Assembly (NCBI GenBank): GCA_035504215.1
Contig: DATJSI010000016.1
Location: 1-40,508, forward strand
Reading direction: 5' to 3'
DNA from: Mycobacteriales bacterium
GTDB taxonomy: Bacteria; Actinomycetota; Actinomycetes; JAFAQI01
Length of the DNA stretch: 40,508 nucleotides
In this document: one piece after another, positions 10,705 to 28,211 of the stretch
How the letters are laid out: each line of letters opens with the position of its first letter
Numbering within the stretch: the stretch's first letter is position 1
Notes under the pieces: model-generated
The model's database searches: none
The model's input: only the letters and a program-made list of their open reading frames with translations
What the model was told of the DNA's origin: nothing
Program-made: the position numbers and the translations under genes

Positions 10705-10811
10705 TGCGCTACCTCGCCCTGCTGGTCCTTGGGGTCGTCTTCCTGACCGGGCTGGTCTGGTGGGTGGTCTTCATCGGCAACACCCTGTTGCACCTGATCC
10801 GCCGGCGGTGA
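10704..10811 (+). CDS. 35-residue single-pass membrane peptide
   Basis: GTG 10704 opens a 35-codon frame encoding a hydrophobic helix (about residues 4-27, LALLVLGVVFLTGLVWWVVF) followed by a short polar turn and a basic LIRRR end. The positive C-terminus suggests the N-terminus faces outward, or that RRR anchors it at the cytosolic face. A -10-like box seven bases upstream and a GTGA overlap with the following lipoprotein gene support real translation and coupling. I do not recognise the family. It might be a small accessory subunit for the lipoprotein or a neighbouring membrane complex; no catalytic residues are visible. Confidence 0.6.
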   Translation: MRYLALLVLGVVFLTGLVWWVVFIGNTLLHLIRRR

Positions 10812-11365
10812 ACCCTCGCCGGCTTCGTCTGGCCGGTGCGCTGGCCGGCCTCGCGCTGGTCGCGGCCTGCGGGTCGAGCGGGCCGGTCGACAGCCCGCCG
10901 ACCGCGGCGCCGGGCGTCGGCGGCGCCGGTTCCGCGCCCGACATCCAGAAGTTCCTGCAACTGCCGGTCGCCACGCCGAGCGTGTGCCCGAGCAACGAGA
11001 ACGGGACCACGATCGGCCGCGCCTCACCCTGGGTCGGCCACGTCGACCTCTCGATCTTCCTCTCGACACCGGTCAGCGCGGCGCAGACCTCGCGGGTCCG
11101 CCAGGTGCTCGCCAAGAGCATGCTCGTGCACCGCTTGTACTTCGAGTCCCAGTCGGAGGCGTACGCCGAGTTCCAGCGGCTCTACACCTGTTGGGCATCC
11201 GTCTCACGTTCGCAGACGCCGCCGTCGTACCGCGTCCTGCTGCTGCCCAGCATCACGCTGCAGCAACGCAACGGCCTGGTGCAGCAGCTGGTCAACCTGG
11301 CCGGTGTCGACTCGGTCAGCTGCGACCCGAACGTCCCCTGCACCCAGATCCACCGCACCACCTAA
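10808..11365 (+). CDS. Lipoprotein resembling a free-standing FtsX extracellular domain
   Basis: A 185-residue exported lipoprotein. The signal peptide ends in the lipobox LVAAC with the lipidated Cys21, followed by a Ser/Pro/Gly linker. Residues about 75-185 follow the FtsX extracellular domain pattern: a VDLSIFLSTPVS strand, VRQVLAKSMLVHRLYFESQSEAYAEF, PPSYRVLLL, and LVQQLVNLAGVDSVSCDP. In full FtsX this domain, held by four membrane helices, activates peptidoglycan hydrolases during division; here the membrane part and FtsE are absent. Four further cysteines (two in the C-terminal CDPNVPC) may form disulfides. GTG 10808 overlaps the micropeptide stop. The domain match is from recalled family features. 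Confidence 0.75.
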   Translation: MNPRRLRLAGALAGLALVAACGSSGPVDSPPTAAPGVGGAGSAPDIQKFLQLPVATPSVCPSNENGTTIGRASPWVGHVDLSIFLSTPVSAAQTSRVRQVLAKSMLVHRLYFESQSEAYAEFQRLYTCWASVSRSQTPPSYRVLLLPSITLQQRNGLVQQLVNLAGVDSVSCDPNVPCTQIHRTT

Positions 11366-11375
11366 CGCCCCGATG

Positions 11376-11417
11376 TGTGACGGGCTACGTACAGCCCGCT
11401 GTACCCACCCCGTCACA
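11376..11417 (+). repeat. Left terminal inverted repeat of the element
   Basis: Begins TGTGACGGGCTACGTACAGC and ends CCCGTCACA. Outer arms TGTGACGGG/CCCGTCACA pair; so do CGGGCT/AGCCCG around ACGTAC, and GTACAG/CTGTAC around CCCG. The TGA stop of the DUF559 remnant lies inside the repeat (11413-11415, minus strand). Confidence 0.8.
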
Positions 11418-11673
11418 ATCCAGCGGGCAGCCGCTGAGGGCAGCGTGCACAGCGCGTGAATCGGCCGGCCCATCCTTGTTGGCGAAGTACCAGCGCCTGT
11501 TGGATCGCGACCTCACAGGGGCGCTCGACGATGTCCGCCCAGCCGTATCGCAGCTGACGAAGGCCACGCATTTCACTGCTGTTGTCGCGACGCATGTCGC
11601 GCCAGATCTCGTGAGCCCGATCGTGGCCGAGTCGACCGTCGACCTCGACATGCAGACGAAACTCGCCTCGCAC
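11413..11673 (-). pseudogene. 3' remnant of a DUF559-type endonuclease-like gene
   Basis: An 86-codon frame whose residues 5-75 (beginning FRLHVEVDGRLGHDR, then RRDN, LRYGWADIVERPCEV and a C-x2-C near the end) match the C-terminal half of DUF559/AbiEi-associated proteins, a Vsr-like restriction-endonuclease fold common in actinobacteria. Normal members are roughly 280-310 residues. Here the codon before the first possible start (GTG) is TGA, and the upstream 140 bp show no matching N-terminal part in any frame. I take it as a truncated relic inside the palindrome-bounded element. Expression is possible but would lack the N-terminal domain. Confidence 0.65.
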
Positions 11674-11812
11674 TCAGCCAGCCCGACGGCGCCAGCACTC
11701 GCGGCACCCAAACCGGGACGTCGGCCGGGATAGGTCACGGATACGAGCCTCGGGTACGGACCTGAGCGGCGCAACCACGCAAGACGATCTGTGGACGCGG
11801 TCGCAATCGATT

Positions 11813-11854
11813 CGTGACGGACTGGATACAACCGGCTGTACGTAGCCGGTCACA
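11813..11854 (-). repeat. Right terminal inverted repeat of the element
   Basis: Reverse complement begins TGTGACCGGCTACGTACAGC and ends GTCCGTCACG. It differs from the left copy at seven positions. Two of these (7 and 22) swap G-C for C-G and keep the inner stem paired; C-to-T changes at 24 and 29 keep G-U pairs. Confidence 0.8.
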
Positions 11855-11860
11855 AACCCG

Positions 11861-12982
11861 TTAGGACCAGACCTCGGAGGCGGTTTCGACGATCAGGCGG
11901 AGCTTCGCCACCTGCTCGTCGTAGCTCAACGAGTTGCCTTCGACGGTCGAGGAGAAGCCGCACTGCGGCGAGAGGCAGAGCTGCTCGAGCGGAACGTACG
12001 TCGAGGCCTCGTCGATCCGCCGCTTCAGGTCGTCCTTGGATTCGAGCGCTCCCCGTTTCGTGGTCACGAGACCGAGGACGACGTGCTTTTCTTCGGGGAC
12101 GAAGCGCAGCGGCTCGAACCCGCCCGATCGGGCGTCGTCGTACTCCAGGAAGAACCCGTCCACGTCGAGTCCGCCGAACAGTGCCTCCGCGACGAAGTCG
12201 TAACCGCCTTCGGCCGCCCATGAGGACTGGAAGTTGCCGCGGCACATGTGAGTCGTGATGCGCATGCCTTCCGGCTTCGCGGCGATGACCCGGTTGAGAT
12301 TGCGGATGTACAGCTCGTGCTGGTGCTCGCGGTCGCCGCCGAGCGAAGCGATCAGCTCGCGCTGTCGAGGGTCGTTGAGATAGGCAAGGCTCGTGTCGTC
12401 GAGCTGCAGGTACTGGCAGCCCAGCTCGCCGAGGCGGCGAACCTCTTCGGCGTACGCCGCGGTGAGGTCGTCCCAGAATGTGTCGAGATCCGGATAGACG
12501 GACTCGTCGATCGCTGCCCGGCCGCCGCGGTAGTGCACCATGCTCGGCGACGGGATGGTGAGCTTCGGTGTCACGCCCTCGCCGGCCTGCTCGCGCAGGA
12601 AGCGGAAGTGGTCGGCGAAGATGGTGTCGTTCAGCCGGACCCGATCCGCGATTCGCAACGCGGCCGGAGCGAAGTCGATCGTGCCGTTGTCGTTGAAGAA
12701 CTGCACGCGCATCTTCTCGTTGGCCTGCGTGACGCCGCCGAGTGAGTAGATGAAGTCCATGTGCCACGCGGTACGACGGAACTCGCCATCGGTCGCCGAC
12801 TGCAGGCCGACGTCGCGCTGCATTGCGACGACATCGCGGATCGCGTCGTCCTCGATTGCGCGCAGCTCGTCCGCGTCGATCTCTCCGGCGGCCTCGCTCG
12901 CCCGGGCCTTCATCAACCGCTCTGGTCGCAACAGGCTGCCCACGTGATCGGCTCTGAACGGTGGCTCGCTGCGTCGGGTCAT
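11861..12982 (-). CDS. MetE-like (cobalamin-independent methionine synthase II family) protein
   Basis: A 373-residue zinc methyltransferase-fold protein corresponding to the C-terminal domain of MetE, like the YxjG/YxjH group. Zinc ligands are visible as His245 and Cys247 in THMCRGNF and Cys341 in LSPQCGFSS, with a candidate Glu in FFLEYDD. The N-terminal FRADHVGSLLRPERLMKAR is typical. Such proteins move methyl groups to a thiol such as homocysteine, or act on thioethers as in coenzyme-M epoxide lyases. The ATG at 12982 overlaps the stop of the MFS gene (ATGA), which itself touches pobA, so it is translated from an aromatic-catabolism operon. That context suggests use of methyl groups or thiol adducts from aromatic substrates (inference). 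Confidence 0.88.
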   Translation of the reverse strand: MTRRSEPPFRADHVGSLLRPERLMKARASEAAGEIDADELRAIEDDAIRDVVAMQRDVGLQSATDGEFRRTAWHMDFIYSLGGVTQANEKMRVQFFNDNGTIDFAPAALRIADRVRLNDTIFADHFRFLREQAGEGVTPKLTIPSPSMVHYRGGRAAIDESVYPDLDTFWDDLTAAYAEEVRRLGELGCQYLQLDDTSLAYLNDPRQRELIASLGGDREHQHELYIRNLNRVIAAKPEGMRITTHMCRGNFQSSWAAEGGYDFVAEALFGGLDVDGFFLEYDDARSGGFEPLRFVPEEKHVVLGLVTTKRGALESKDDLKRRIDEASTYVPLEQLCLSPQCGFSSTVEGNSLSYDEQVAKLRLIVETASEVWS

Positions 12983-14235
12983 GGTCCCTGCCTTTCGTCG
13001 TCGACGCCGACGGTGATGCCCGCCCCTGCCGTCACATAGCCGGTCGAACCGGCCGCCAGACCCGACACGAGCTGCGGAATCGTGAGGACCAGTAGGAAGA
13101 CCAGCGGGGCACCCCACCCACCGGTCCACGAGTGCAGGGCGCCAACGAACAGCGGGCCAAGGCCGGCGATGAGGTAGCCGACCGACTGCGCCATCGATGA
13201 CAACTGCGCGGTGGACCCGTGGCTTCGGGTCCGCATGACGATGAGCAGCAAGCCGACGGCGAACGCCGCGCCCTGGCCGATCCCGAGCAGCACGACCCAC
13301 AGCACCGCGGGTTTCGTCGGCGCCAGCCACAAGCCGAGAAAGCCGATCGCGGTGAAGCCGGTGGCGAACGCGACCGAGACGCGCTGGTCGCGGGCCCGTT
13401 CCGCGTACGTCGGCAGCACCAGCGCGATCGGTAGCTGCACGAACGCGGTCAGCGACAGCAGGCCTCCGGCAGAAGCCGCCGAGTAGCCGTGGTCCTGGTA
13501 GAGCGACGGCAACCAGTTGAGTACGGCGTAGAAGCTCAGCGACTGCATCCCGAAGAACGCGGTCACGGCCCAGGCCATCGGGTCGCGCCAGAGCCCGGGA
13601 GCCGGCCGCTCCGGCTCGGCCACGAGCGGCCGGTCGGCGCGAGCGTGCGGCAACCAGAGCAGGAAGGCGATCGCGGCGGCCGCGACCCAGATCCCGAGTC
13701 CACCCCGCCAGCCGTGCCCGATCGCGTCGGCGATCGGCACCGTCAGGCCCGCCCCGATCGCGGCGGAGCCAACGACAGCGGTCGTGTACAGCCCCATCAT
13801 GGTGCCGGTCGCCTCGGGAAAGTCCCGCTTGACGAGCACCGGCAGCAGCACGTTGGCGGTCGCGATGCCGGCCGCCGCGATCACCGTCCCGATGAACAGC
13901 GTCGCGATGTCGGGGCCGATGCGGATGACCAGGCCTACGGTCACCGTCGCGACGACGGCCAGCACCGCGCGATGCAAGCCCAGCCGGCGCGCAATCCGGG
14001 GGGCGACGAGTGCGAGCAGGCCGAAGCAGAACACCGGCGCCGCCGTGAGCGCCGACGCGCCTGCCGACGACAGCCCGAGCGAGTGCTGAACCTGGTCGAG
14101 GATCGGTCCTACGCTCGCGACGGCAAGTCGCTGGTTCAGTGCGACGACCACGACCGCGATGGCGAAGCCGATCGGCACGGCCCGCCCGGCCATGCCCGCC
14201 CGGCCTCGGTCCGGGCCGTTCTCAACAGTCGTCAT
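12979..14235 (-). CDS. MFS transporter, CynX/NimT-like
   Basis: A 418-residue membrane protein with about twelve hydrophobic segments in two halves separated by a polar loop (HARADRPLVAEPERPAPGLWRDP). The first helix pair IAVVVVALNQRLAVASVGPILDQVQ and the TGTMMGLYTTAVVGSAAIGAG segment resemble the cyanate/nitroimidazole transporter branch of the major facilitator superfamily. ATG 14235 shares its A with the pobA stop (TGATG), and its stop overlaps the MetE-like start, so the three are coupled. Uptake of 4-hydroxybenzoate or a methoxylated aromatic acid is the natural guess, but this branch differs from the PcaK-type aromatic acid transporters, so the substrate is open. Confidence 0.88.
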   Translation of the reverse strand: MTTVENGPDRGRAGMAGRAVPIGFAIAVVVVALNQRLAVASVGPILDQVQHSLGLSSAGASALTAAPVFCFGLLALVAPRIARRLGLHRAVLAVVATVTVGLVIRIGPDIATLFIGTVIAAAGIATANVLLPVLVKRDFPEATGTMMGLYTTAVVGSAAIGAGLTVPIADAIGHGWRGGLGIWVAAAAIAFLLWLPHARADRPLVAEPERPAPGLWRDPMAWAVTAFFGMQSLSFYAVLNWLPSLYQDHGYSAASAGGLLSLTAFVQLPIALVLPTYAERARDQRVSVAFATGFTAIGFLGLWLAPTKPAVLWVVLLGIGQGAAFAVGLLLIVMRTRSHGSTAQLSSMAQSVGYLIAGLGPLFVGALHSWTGGWGAPLVFLLVLTIPQLVSGLAAGSTGYVTAGAGITVGVDDERQGP

Positions 14236-23427: not shown

Positions 23428-23436
23428 GCCACTCGA

Positions 23437-23475
23437 CCGGTTCGGCGTACGCACAATTGGCGTACGCCGAACCGG
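23437..23475. terminator. Perfect 16-bp hairpin between convergent genes
   Basis: CCGGTTCGGCGTACGC (23437-23452) and its exact reverse complement (23460-23475) flank ACAATTG. It starts ten bases after the padR stop and lies 36 bases from the stop of the convergent haem protein gene. No U-tract follows, but the stem is strong and symmetric, so a bidirectional terminator is likely. Confidence 0.75.
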
Positions 23476-23511
23476 CGTCCCGGCCCCTGAGCGTCCCCTG
23501 GCTCTGAGCGC

Positions 23512-26331: not shown

Positions 26332-28211
26332 TGCAGCCGGACGTGAGTGTGGTGGTGCCGGTCTTCAATCCGGGGCCGAACCTGGACTATTGCGTCGGGT
26401 CGGTGCTCGGCCAGACGCTGGACCCGCGGCGTCACGAGCTGATCCTCGTGGACGACGGTTCGACCGACGGCTCGGCGCCGCGCGTCGACCAGATCGCCGC
26501 CGCACATCCGGATCGCATCAGGGCCACGCACATCCCGAGCTCCGGATGGGCGAGCCGGCCGCGCAACGTGGGCATCGAGATGGCGCGCGGTCGCTACGTT
26601 CAGCTGCTCGACAACGACGACACCCTAGCTCCGGACGCGCTGCGGCGTGAGCTCGAGGTCGCCGACAGCTCCGACGCCGACATCGTGATCGGCCGGTTCG
26701 CGAGCAACTTTCGCGGTCTCAACCACTGGTTGTTCAGAGAGACGGTGACCGGACGCACGCTCGCGGACTTTCCGATGGAGTACAGCCTGACGCCGCACAA
26801 GCTGTTCCGTCGCGAGTTCCTCGACCAGAACGCCCTGCGATTCGTCGAGGACATCCGCAACCTCGAGGACCAGATCTTCTGCATGCAGGCCTACGTCAAG
26901 GCCCGATCCGTCGCCCTGGTCGCCGACACGCTCTGCTACCACTACGAGCAGCGGCGTGGTCCGGGTCGGAACGCAGGCACCCGACGGCTGGACGCAGCGG
27001 CGTACTACGCCGCACTCGAGAGGGTCTTCGACGTCATCGACTCGGGAGTCGAGGACCCGACGCTACGGCTGCGGCTCTACCTGCGGTTCTACCGCGACGA
27101 GATGCTCCGGCGGCTGCGCGAGGACAACCTGCTGCGCTACCCGGTCCCCTACCGCGACCGGATGCAGGCGACGATCCTCGACCTCGCCCGCCGCCGCATT
27201 CCCGCGGAGCTGCATCCCACGCTCCCCGCACTGCTGCGCACCCAGTCCCGGCTGTTCCTTGACGACGACATCGAGGGGATGGTCGAGTACTCGAAGCAGC
27301 TCGTGGCGCTGACCCTCGACGCCCGGTGCGAAGACCCGGTCTGGGAGCAGGGACGGCTTTCGGTTCGCGCGCATGGCCGACTCATGCTGCGTGACCAGCC
27401 GTTCCGGCTCGAGCAGCACGACGGCGGCTGGGCGCTTCCGGAGGCGATCGCCCCGTCGGTGCGGCTCGAGGACCGCCGGCTGCTCGACCTCAACGACGAG
27501 GGATACACCGAGCTCAGCCTGGTCGCGCGCAGTGACGGCGCCTCCTGGTCGGCCGGTGCCGACATCGCGGTGACGATCGACGCGGACGGGTCCGTCCGCG
27601 TCGATGCGATCGCCGAGATCGACCCCGATCGCGTGGTCGGAGGCGGTCGGCTGGGACCAGGGCTTTGGGACCTCAAGCTGCGCGTGCAGTTCGCCGGGCT
27701 GACGCGCACCGCCATGCTCGGCATCGACCGACCCGCCGACTCGCCGCCCGGCGAGCCGTCCGCGTGGCTGACTTCGCAAGGTTCAGTCGAACCGTACTGG
27801 ACGAACAAGACCGTCCGGCTCTCGCTCGACGTCGACCAGTGGATGCATCCACTCGCCGCCAAGGTCGGACGCCCGCTTCACGCGCGTGGCGGCCGGGGCC
27901 GCTCACTGTTGCTCGATGCGCCGCGGCTGCAGGGTCCGCAGGGTCACGTCGTACCCGCCGAGTGCATCCTGACCGCCGCCGGAAAGAACCCGGCCGACGG
28001 CCGGCGCCGGGCCAAGGTCAGCGTTTCCCCGTCCGGTGGCGTCGTCGAGGTCGAGCCTGCGCACGGTCGGCACGGTGCCCATCCCGATCGGAACGGCAAC
28101 CTCCCCGGCTGGACGACCTGGTTGCGGATCGGAGCGCCCGGCACCGGGCCCATGATCGAGGTCGACCCCTCCAACGAGGCCACCGCAGCAGGGTCCGGCC
28201 CGCCGGCGTGA
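26331..28211 (+). CDS. Family 2 glycosyltransferase with beta-sandwich C-terminal region
   Basis: A 626-residue enzyme. The N-terminal GT-A domain (about residues 4-230) has VSVVVPVFNPGPNLDYCVGSVLGQT, LVDDGSTDGS and the metal-binding Asp94-Asn-Asp96-Asp97 in LLDNDD; GWASRPRNVGIEMARG and HKLFRREFL follow the TarP/TarS-like branch. A helical region (about 230-330) and a strand-rich region with repeated units (LSVRAHGRLMLRDQPFRLEQHDGG, TELSLVARSDGASW, TVRLSLDVDQWMHPL) complete it. No membrane segment is seen. Transfer of a sugar to a teichoic-acid-like or other surface polymer is likely; donor and acceptor are unknown. GTG 26331 is the only start near the conserved N-terminus, and the transcript may be leaderless. 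Confidence 0.85.
   Translation: MQPDVSVVVPVFNPGPNLDYCVGSVLGQTLDPRRHELILVDDGSTDGSAPRVDQIAAAHPDRIRATHIPSSGWASRPRNVGIEMARGRYVQLLDNDDTLAPDALRRELEVADSSDADIVIGRFASNFRGLNHWLFRETVTGRTLADFPMEYSLTPHKLFRREFLDQNALRFVEDIRNLEDQIFCMQAYVKARSVALVADTLCYHYEQRRGPGRNAGTRRLDAAAYYAALERVFDVIDSGVEDPTLRLRLYLRFYRDEMLRRLREDNLLRYPVPYRDRMQATILDLARRRIPAELHPTLPALLRTQSRLFLDDDIEGMVEYSKQLVALTLDARCEDPVWEQGRLSVRAHGRLMLRDQPFRLEQHDGGWALPEAIAPSVRLEDRRLLDLNDEGYTELSLVARSDGASWSAGADIAVTIDADGSVRVDAIAEIDPDRVVGGGRLGPGLWDLKLRVQFAGLTRTAMLGIDRPADSPPGEPSAWLTSQGSVEPYWTNKTVRLSLDVDQWMHPLAAKVGRPLHARGGRGRSLLLDAPRLQGPQGHVVPAECILTAAGKNPADGRRRAKVSVSPSGGVVEVEPAHGRHGAHPDRNGNLPGWTTWLRIGAPGTGPMIEVDPSNEATAAGSGPPA

Follow-up and report, generated by a model that had tools for sequence, protein, structure and literature searches.

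The window analyzed here, a 40,508-nucleotide stretch of an actinobacterial contig, contains a 479-bp segment bounded by two 42-bp palindromes, WL and WR, that enclose the remnant of a gene for an AbiEi-DUF559 nuclease (Table 1). The segment lies between the 3′ ends of two convergent genes, as is evident from the neighboring stop codons, which stand 10 bp before WL (FtsX_ECD gene) and 6 bp from WR (Meth_synt_2 gene). An earlier note on this DNA had described the ends as inverted repeats that are each an imperfect palindrome, and both observations hold: the pair gives the best ungapped 42-bp inverted match of all places in the 40.5-kb window, and dyad symmetry extends over 17 of 21 pairs in WL and 14 of 21 in WR. 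The two ends differ at positions 7, 22, 24, 29, 33, 34, and 42, and their match in the whole 3.47-Mb genome has a blastn E value of 2.8e-6. Relative to shuffled sequences, WL folds far better (z −4.3) and WR weakly so (z −1.6). Two other strong hairpins in the window, at 23434-23477 and 27575-27605, are unrelated in sequence and are probably terminators.

Table 1. Features of the palindrome-bounded segment and its neighbors (window coordinates)
Feature	Position	Strand	Remarks
Left 42-bp palindrome (WL)	11376..11417	+	TGTGACGGGCTACGTACAGCCCGCTGTACCCACCCCGTCACA; 65 bits with covariance model R1
Right 42-bp palindrome (WR)	11813..11854	-	TGTGACCGGCTACGTACAGCCGGTTGTATCCAGTCCGTCACG; inverted relative to WL, 35/42 positions identical; 59.8 bits with model R1
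AbiEi-DUF559 nuclease gene remnant	11437..11733	-	About residues 209-309 of a 312-aa relative (G004), 58% identity
Left neighbor, FtsX_ECD domain protein gene	10760..11365	+	Host gene, outside the element
Right neighbor, Meth_synt_2 (cobalamin-independent methionine synthase type) gene	11861..13330	-	Host gene, outside the element

The remnant retains approximately the last 100 codons of the gene, with one in-frame TGA, and its stop codon is the TGA within the TGTGA of WL (11415-11413, minus strand). It lacks the first ≈208 codons as well as the upstream spacer, and the window copy is ≈620 bp shorter than the complete unit of the relative G004 described below. Within its own genome (a draft that is 96% complete), the remnant is the sole homolog of the G004 protein at E ≤ 1e-15, so the gene that belongs to the palindrome family of the window has apparently been lost. 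The PF04480 genes of the source genome and its family were considered as active copies and set aside; most of them have no long palindromes, and the units described here differ in this respect from most PF04480-type loci of the same family.

Relatives carry the arrangement in complete form, with paired ends around whole DUF559-like genes, as the earlier note had envisaged. In G004, which belongs to the same family, a palindrome, an intact 312-aa gene, and a second palindrome make up 1101 bp between ruvC and yebC, and the two ends are identical at 41 of 42 positions. A second complete unit stands between deaminase and methyltransferase genes in a Frankiaceae MAG (G008, JAICMG010000017). The search for related loci returned two loci in genomes and none in viral contigs. 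Across the class, 129 of 395 genomes have AbiEi-DUF559 homologs, at least five in some of them, at most the best five candidates per genome having been scored. When 62 homolog loci were fetched with ≈4 kb of flank and scanned, palindromes with a score of at least 13 were present upstream of the gene in 31 and downstream in 28, and in 22 loci the gene had one on either side; among control windows taken from these loci, 3.2% and 2.3% scored as high. The palindrome centers typically lie at about −90 from the gene start and +22 from the stop. Framing of the gene by two matching long palindromes is seen in many families but not in all of them.

The two palindromes of a unit belong together. Their sequences vary from unit to unit, and a palindrome finds its best match in its own partner in 24 of 26 units, with a summed left/right similarity of 977 as compared with 755 at most in 5000 within-family permutations. 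The protein follows the same lineages: within one family, protein identity correlates with the similarity of the palindrome cores (Mantel 0.35, 0/5000). The gene, which the earlier note had taken for cargo, probably encodes the element's own protein and acts as its engine. The order of the ends is direct in about half of the complete units and inverted in the other half, so these are not classical terminal inverted repeats, and the units differ from classical insertion sequences and MITEs, whose ends are fixed in inverted order. The many homologs that lack palindromes, including all nine sampled f27 loci and several others, count against reading the family as a palindrome-nuclease element; at such loci the protein may have another function.

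The unit protein, of ≈310 residues, is predicted to join an AbiEi-like DNA-binding N-terminal part to a DUF559/Vsr-like (PD-(D/E)XK-type) nuclease C-terminal part. AbiEi models (PADLOC) match the N-terminal part in 25 of 25 proteins, and the AbiEi structures 6y8q and 9hlo match the first 110 residues in a profile search. Homology of the C-terminal part to DUF559 (PF04480) is found by profile-profile comparison (probability 97.5, E 3e-11), with a direct PF04480 match at E<0.01 in only three of the 25 proteins. Acidic and histidine residues are conserved in this part, with E199, D229, E240, H247, and D260 invariant across all 25 aligned proteins; the series E, D, (E), H, D is reminiscent of the EDxHD pattern of Vsr-type nucleases and Vsr-like homing endonucleases. 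A single-sequence structure model (pLDDT 40) was of no use.

The N-terminal part and the size of the palindrome recall the winged-helix AbiEi antitoxins of type IV AbiE systems and their binding sites. In Streptococcus agalactiae the AbiEi protein recognizes a pair of 23-bp inverted repeats separated by 3 bp (PMC7319586), a site as long as one palindrome here, and two molecules per palindrome are therefore a natural guess. Unlike type IV AbiE, the units have a nuclease part fused C-terminally and palindromes on both sides of the gene. Their neighbors at L040, at L045, and in the flank of L133/L147 are ruvC, yebC, deaminase, methyltransferase, and FAA hydrolase genes, and no AbiEii toxin gene was present in these flanks. 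A nearly full-length AbiEi-DUF559 homolog with 36% identity occurs in a fecal record labeled Bacteriophage sp. (MT835975.1:8497-9384). Searching the plasmid collection with the AbiEi-DUF559 protein gave no match, nor did blastn of one 58-bp palindrome against plasmids, and the plasmid and phage collections contained no real match to the 479 bp of the window.

In the source genome itself the ends recur, another expectation of the earlier note that was borne out. A covariance model built from five copies recovered at least eight strong palindromes, six of them single, along with a weak ninth relative of 25 bits in which both arms have diverged (L024/L046, G000 C37:36942-36983). A covariance model was needed because the palindromes diverge fast: an exact-motif search of 60 relatives came back nearly empty, with the source genome and one likely chance match. 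The single copies examined adjoin the 3′ ends of genes, behind glyoxalase-family, GNAT, and MiaE-like genes. WL and WR form a subfamily of their own, marked by C6, A18, and a paired change at position 25, with A6 and C18 in the other copies.

The symmetry of the palindromes is maintained as their sequences change. Over the full-length palindrome in nine copies, 93% of cells are paired, both members have changed at four pairs, and the score is attained by 0 of 500 shuffles. Among 28 palindromes of the genome G217, eleven pairs show such two-sided change, and there too no shuffle scores as high. These values are supportive rather than exact, as shuffling leaves the kinship among copies in place and similarity served to orient the alignments. 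The compensatory change at positions 7 and 22, from which a conserved stem had been proposed, is present between the two ends of the window, but the local hairpin that it would support is not conserved: across the nine sequences, 54% of its cells are paired, and the score is equaled by 282 of 500 shuffles. Selection on a folded form of the ends, also proposed from the window, agrees with the covariation of the full palindrome, yet the symmetry fits a binding site for two monomers just as well. Covariation of this kind shows that symmetry is kept and cannot tell a folded strand from a two-protein site, and by analogy with AbiEi (PMC7319586) dyad symmetry would be equally expected where two protein monomers bind.

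Lone palindromes far outnumber the units in some genomes. Seven genomes from two genera were searched with a gapped pattern of the outer arms, which finds 16-90 copies in each, and a control pattern finds 0. In G217, two unit genes were detected and 30 palindromes were sampled: 25 are closest to those of one of the two genes, and the other five are closest to the unit of another species of the same genus. These scattered copies, dozens per genome, lie mainly behind stop codons and between convergent genes. Based on gene calls by a simple GC3 method, 41 of 42 copies sampled in three genomes are outside predicted genes, compared with 78% of random positions that fall inside genes. In 12 of 34 copies the center is 22-24 bp behind a stop codon and the TGA of the arm is that stop. 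Arm-pattern matches in viral contigs were of varied lengths among the matches listed and were read as mostly chance. A different palindrome family, of ≈60 bp (GGGTGTGTCTCCCGGG...CCCGGGAGACACACCC), is represented behind a stop codon in G173 (L435, C1:787715), and the corresponding position of G155 (L425-L426) lacks it cleanly.

Two shared sites document turnover of the units, and empty sites, which the earlier note had proposed to look for in relatives, are among their states. Between yebC and ruvC, four genomes of the family (G000, G001, G007, and G010, that of the window included) have an empty gap of 117-161 bp, and G004 and G008 have the unit there. These two species differ from one another in both palindromes, and the two palindromes of one species are more alike, as concerted change would produce. 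In G002 the same gap has a different unit, with a 28%-identical protein and unrelated palindromes. The unit in this gap of G008 (L207, G008 C220, 883-1808) has a frameshift between residues 69 and 75 and is probably dead. Different DUF559-type genes occur in the gap (L198-L207) in G002, G003, G005, G006, and G011, which represent different genera, and it looks like an insertion hot spot.

The second site, behind an FAA-hydrolase gene, was compared in 12 species of one genus and displays at least four palindrome types, with the gene in either orientation. G146 has a solo palindrome at this site, G051 and G155 have relics, and G083 shows a near-empty state that consists only of CCCATGATCATCGGG. 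Between G155 and G173 both the type and the orientation of the element differ, the flanks being 94-98% identical, and the borders of the changes at this site are the palindromes. No target duplication was seen in the junctions compared, where divergence or alteration of the flanks prevents one from being delimited. In G146 (L250, C27), a small heat-shock-like gene, presumably Hsp20-like from a reading of its sequence, stands beside the solo palindrome.

The explanation that we favor, and consider rather probable, is that the copy in the window is dead, the product of an internal deletion of ≈620 bp from a ≈1.1-kb palindrome-gene-palindrome unit, and that the gene of this unit is a mobility gene in the manner of a REPtron. 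We infer the following mode of spread. Two protein molecules would each use the AbiEi-like part to bind one half of the cognate palindrome, the nuclease part would cut or nick at the palindrome or a related target, and repair would copy the palindrome, either alone or together with the gene, into the new location in a homing-like process. The protein would in this way spread its own gene as well as a large set of gene-less palindromes. Whether this constitutes a new class of mobile element, unrelated to any known transposon, in which an AbiEi-Vsr-like fusion propagates itself and gene-less palindromes by a non-HUH, palindrome-binding break-and-copy process, is in our judgment an even call. Against homing-like copying stands the fact that both palindromes of an intact unit stay complete, which leaves the absence of self-cutting unexplained.

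Of the other explanations, the one that fares best holds that the protein acts like a transposase: in place of copying by break repair, it would excise the whole unit, or just the palindrome, in hairpin or cruciform form and then insert it. In two sequence families that are unrelated to each other, symmetry is strong and accompanied by covariation, which would suit such a reaction, as would units in both orientations at one site and the nearly equal shares of direct and inverted ends. No clear target duplication, however, was seen in the junctions compared, whose flanks hardly allow one to be delimited; in addition, a nuclease of the DUF559/Vsr-like type is not known to join strands alone. We regard a transposase-like reaction as unlikely.

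Slightly less probable again is that the palindromes are operators of an AbiEi-like autoregulator, the scattered copies being regulon sites or terminators and the gene having spread by ordinary recombination. AbiEi does bind promoter inverted repeats of like size, and the upstream palindrome lies ≈90 bp before the gene start. An operator, on the other hand, would not account for the second, matching palindrome behind the stop codon, for scattered copies that avoid promoters in favor of stops and convergent gene ends, for left and right palindromes that change in concert while the flanks stay, or for the invariance of the predicted nuclease residues. As for terminators or attC-like sites, the palindromes contain neither T runs nor R′/R″ boxes.

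We find it distinctly improbable that these are ordinary REP-like palindromes moved by an IS200/RAYT-type (Y1 HUH) transposase encoded elsewhere, with the DUF559 gene a mere passenger. Dispersed extragenic palindromes at gene 3′ ends together with a framed gene are the known REP/REPtron pattern (PMC3733652); the earlier note had suggested looking for a trans-acting transposase or recombinase gene that shares the ends. Yet PF01797 had no match in 12 genomes from the palindrome-carrying families, although the positive control matched in five known genomes (a PF01797 search might miss a distant HUH family), and the cores of the palindromes follow the DUF559-like protein. Finally, chance or terminator hairpins of convergent genes around a decayed pseudogene, with no element at all, are barely credible: each palindrome of the window does lie 6-10 bp behind the stop of a convergent gene, but no T run follows, and sequence-conserved copies elsewhere in the genome, complete units in relatives, and site turnover all speak for an element.

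The palindrome-nuclease unit, as we favor it, can be compared with several known systems. In REP/REPtron systems, dispersed extragenic palindromes lie near gene 3′ ends and the cognate gene is framed by two of them; several palindrome families each have their own gene, and gene-less copies are the majority (PMC3733652, PMC2817692). The new units similarly feature many dispersed extragenic palindromes that are cognate to a framed gene. They differ in that the framed gene encodes an AbiEi-DUF559 nuclease and not a Y1 HUH transposase, and their palindromes, at 42-60 bp and with near-complete dyad symmetry, are unlike REPs; the GTAG tag of REPs was not apparent at the palindrome ends on a non-systematic look at the alignments. 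With homing endonucleases the units would share, besides a similar E/D/H residue pattern, the selfish spread of a single gene at defined sites. In contrast to those, the palindrome, if it is the target, is whole on both sides and not split by the gene, and there is no intron or intein. A literature search that covered few subscription journals and no preprints turned up no publication connecting dispersed palindromes to DUF559 or AbiEi genes, and the palindrome-nuclease unit is apparently an undescribed kind of selfish DNA in actinobacteria.

REP-type palindromes with no known mobilizer exist, for example the CGTC class (PMC3733652). The actinobacterial palindrome families have a cognate low-copy nuclease gene, one that is no known transposase. 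If our interpretation is correct, many genes annotated as "DUF559" or "type IV toxin-antitoxin AbiEi family" would become candidates for selfish genes, and each of their two domains would have a function that can be put to the test. The units would likewise supply numerous natural enzyme-site pairs in which both partners diverge jointly, of use in studying how DNA specificity evolves. Overall, the palindrome-nuclease units would represent an independent counterpart of the REP/RAYT system in actinobacteria, one that uses a non-HUH enzyme.
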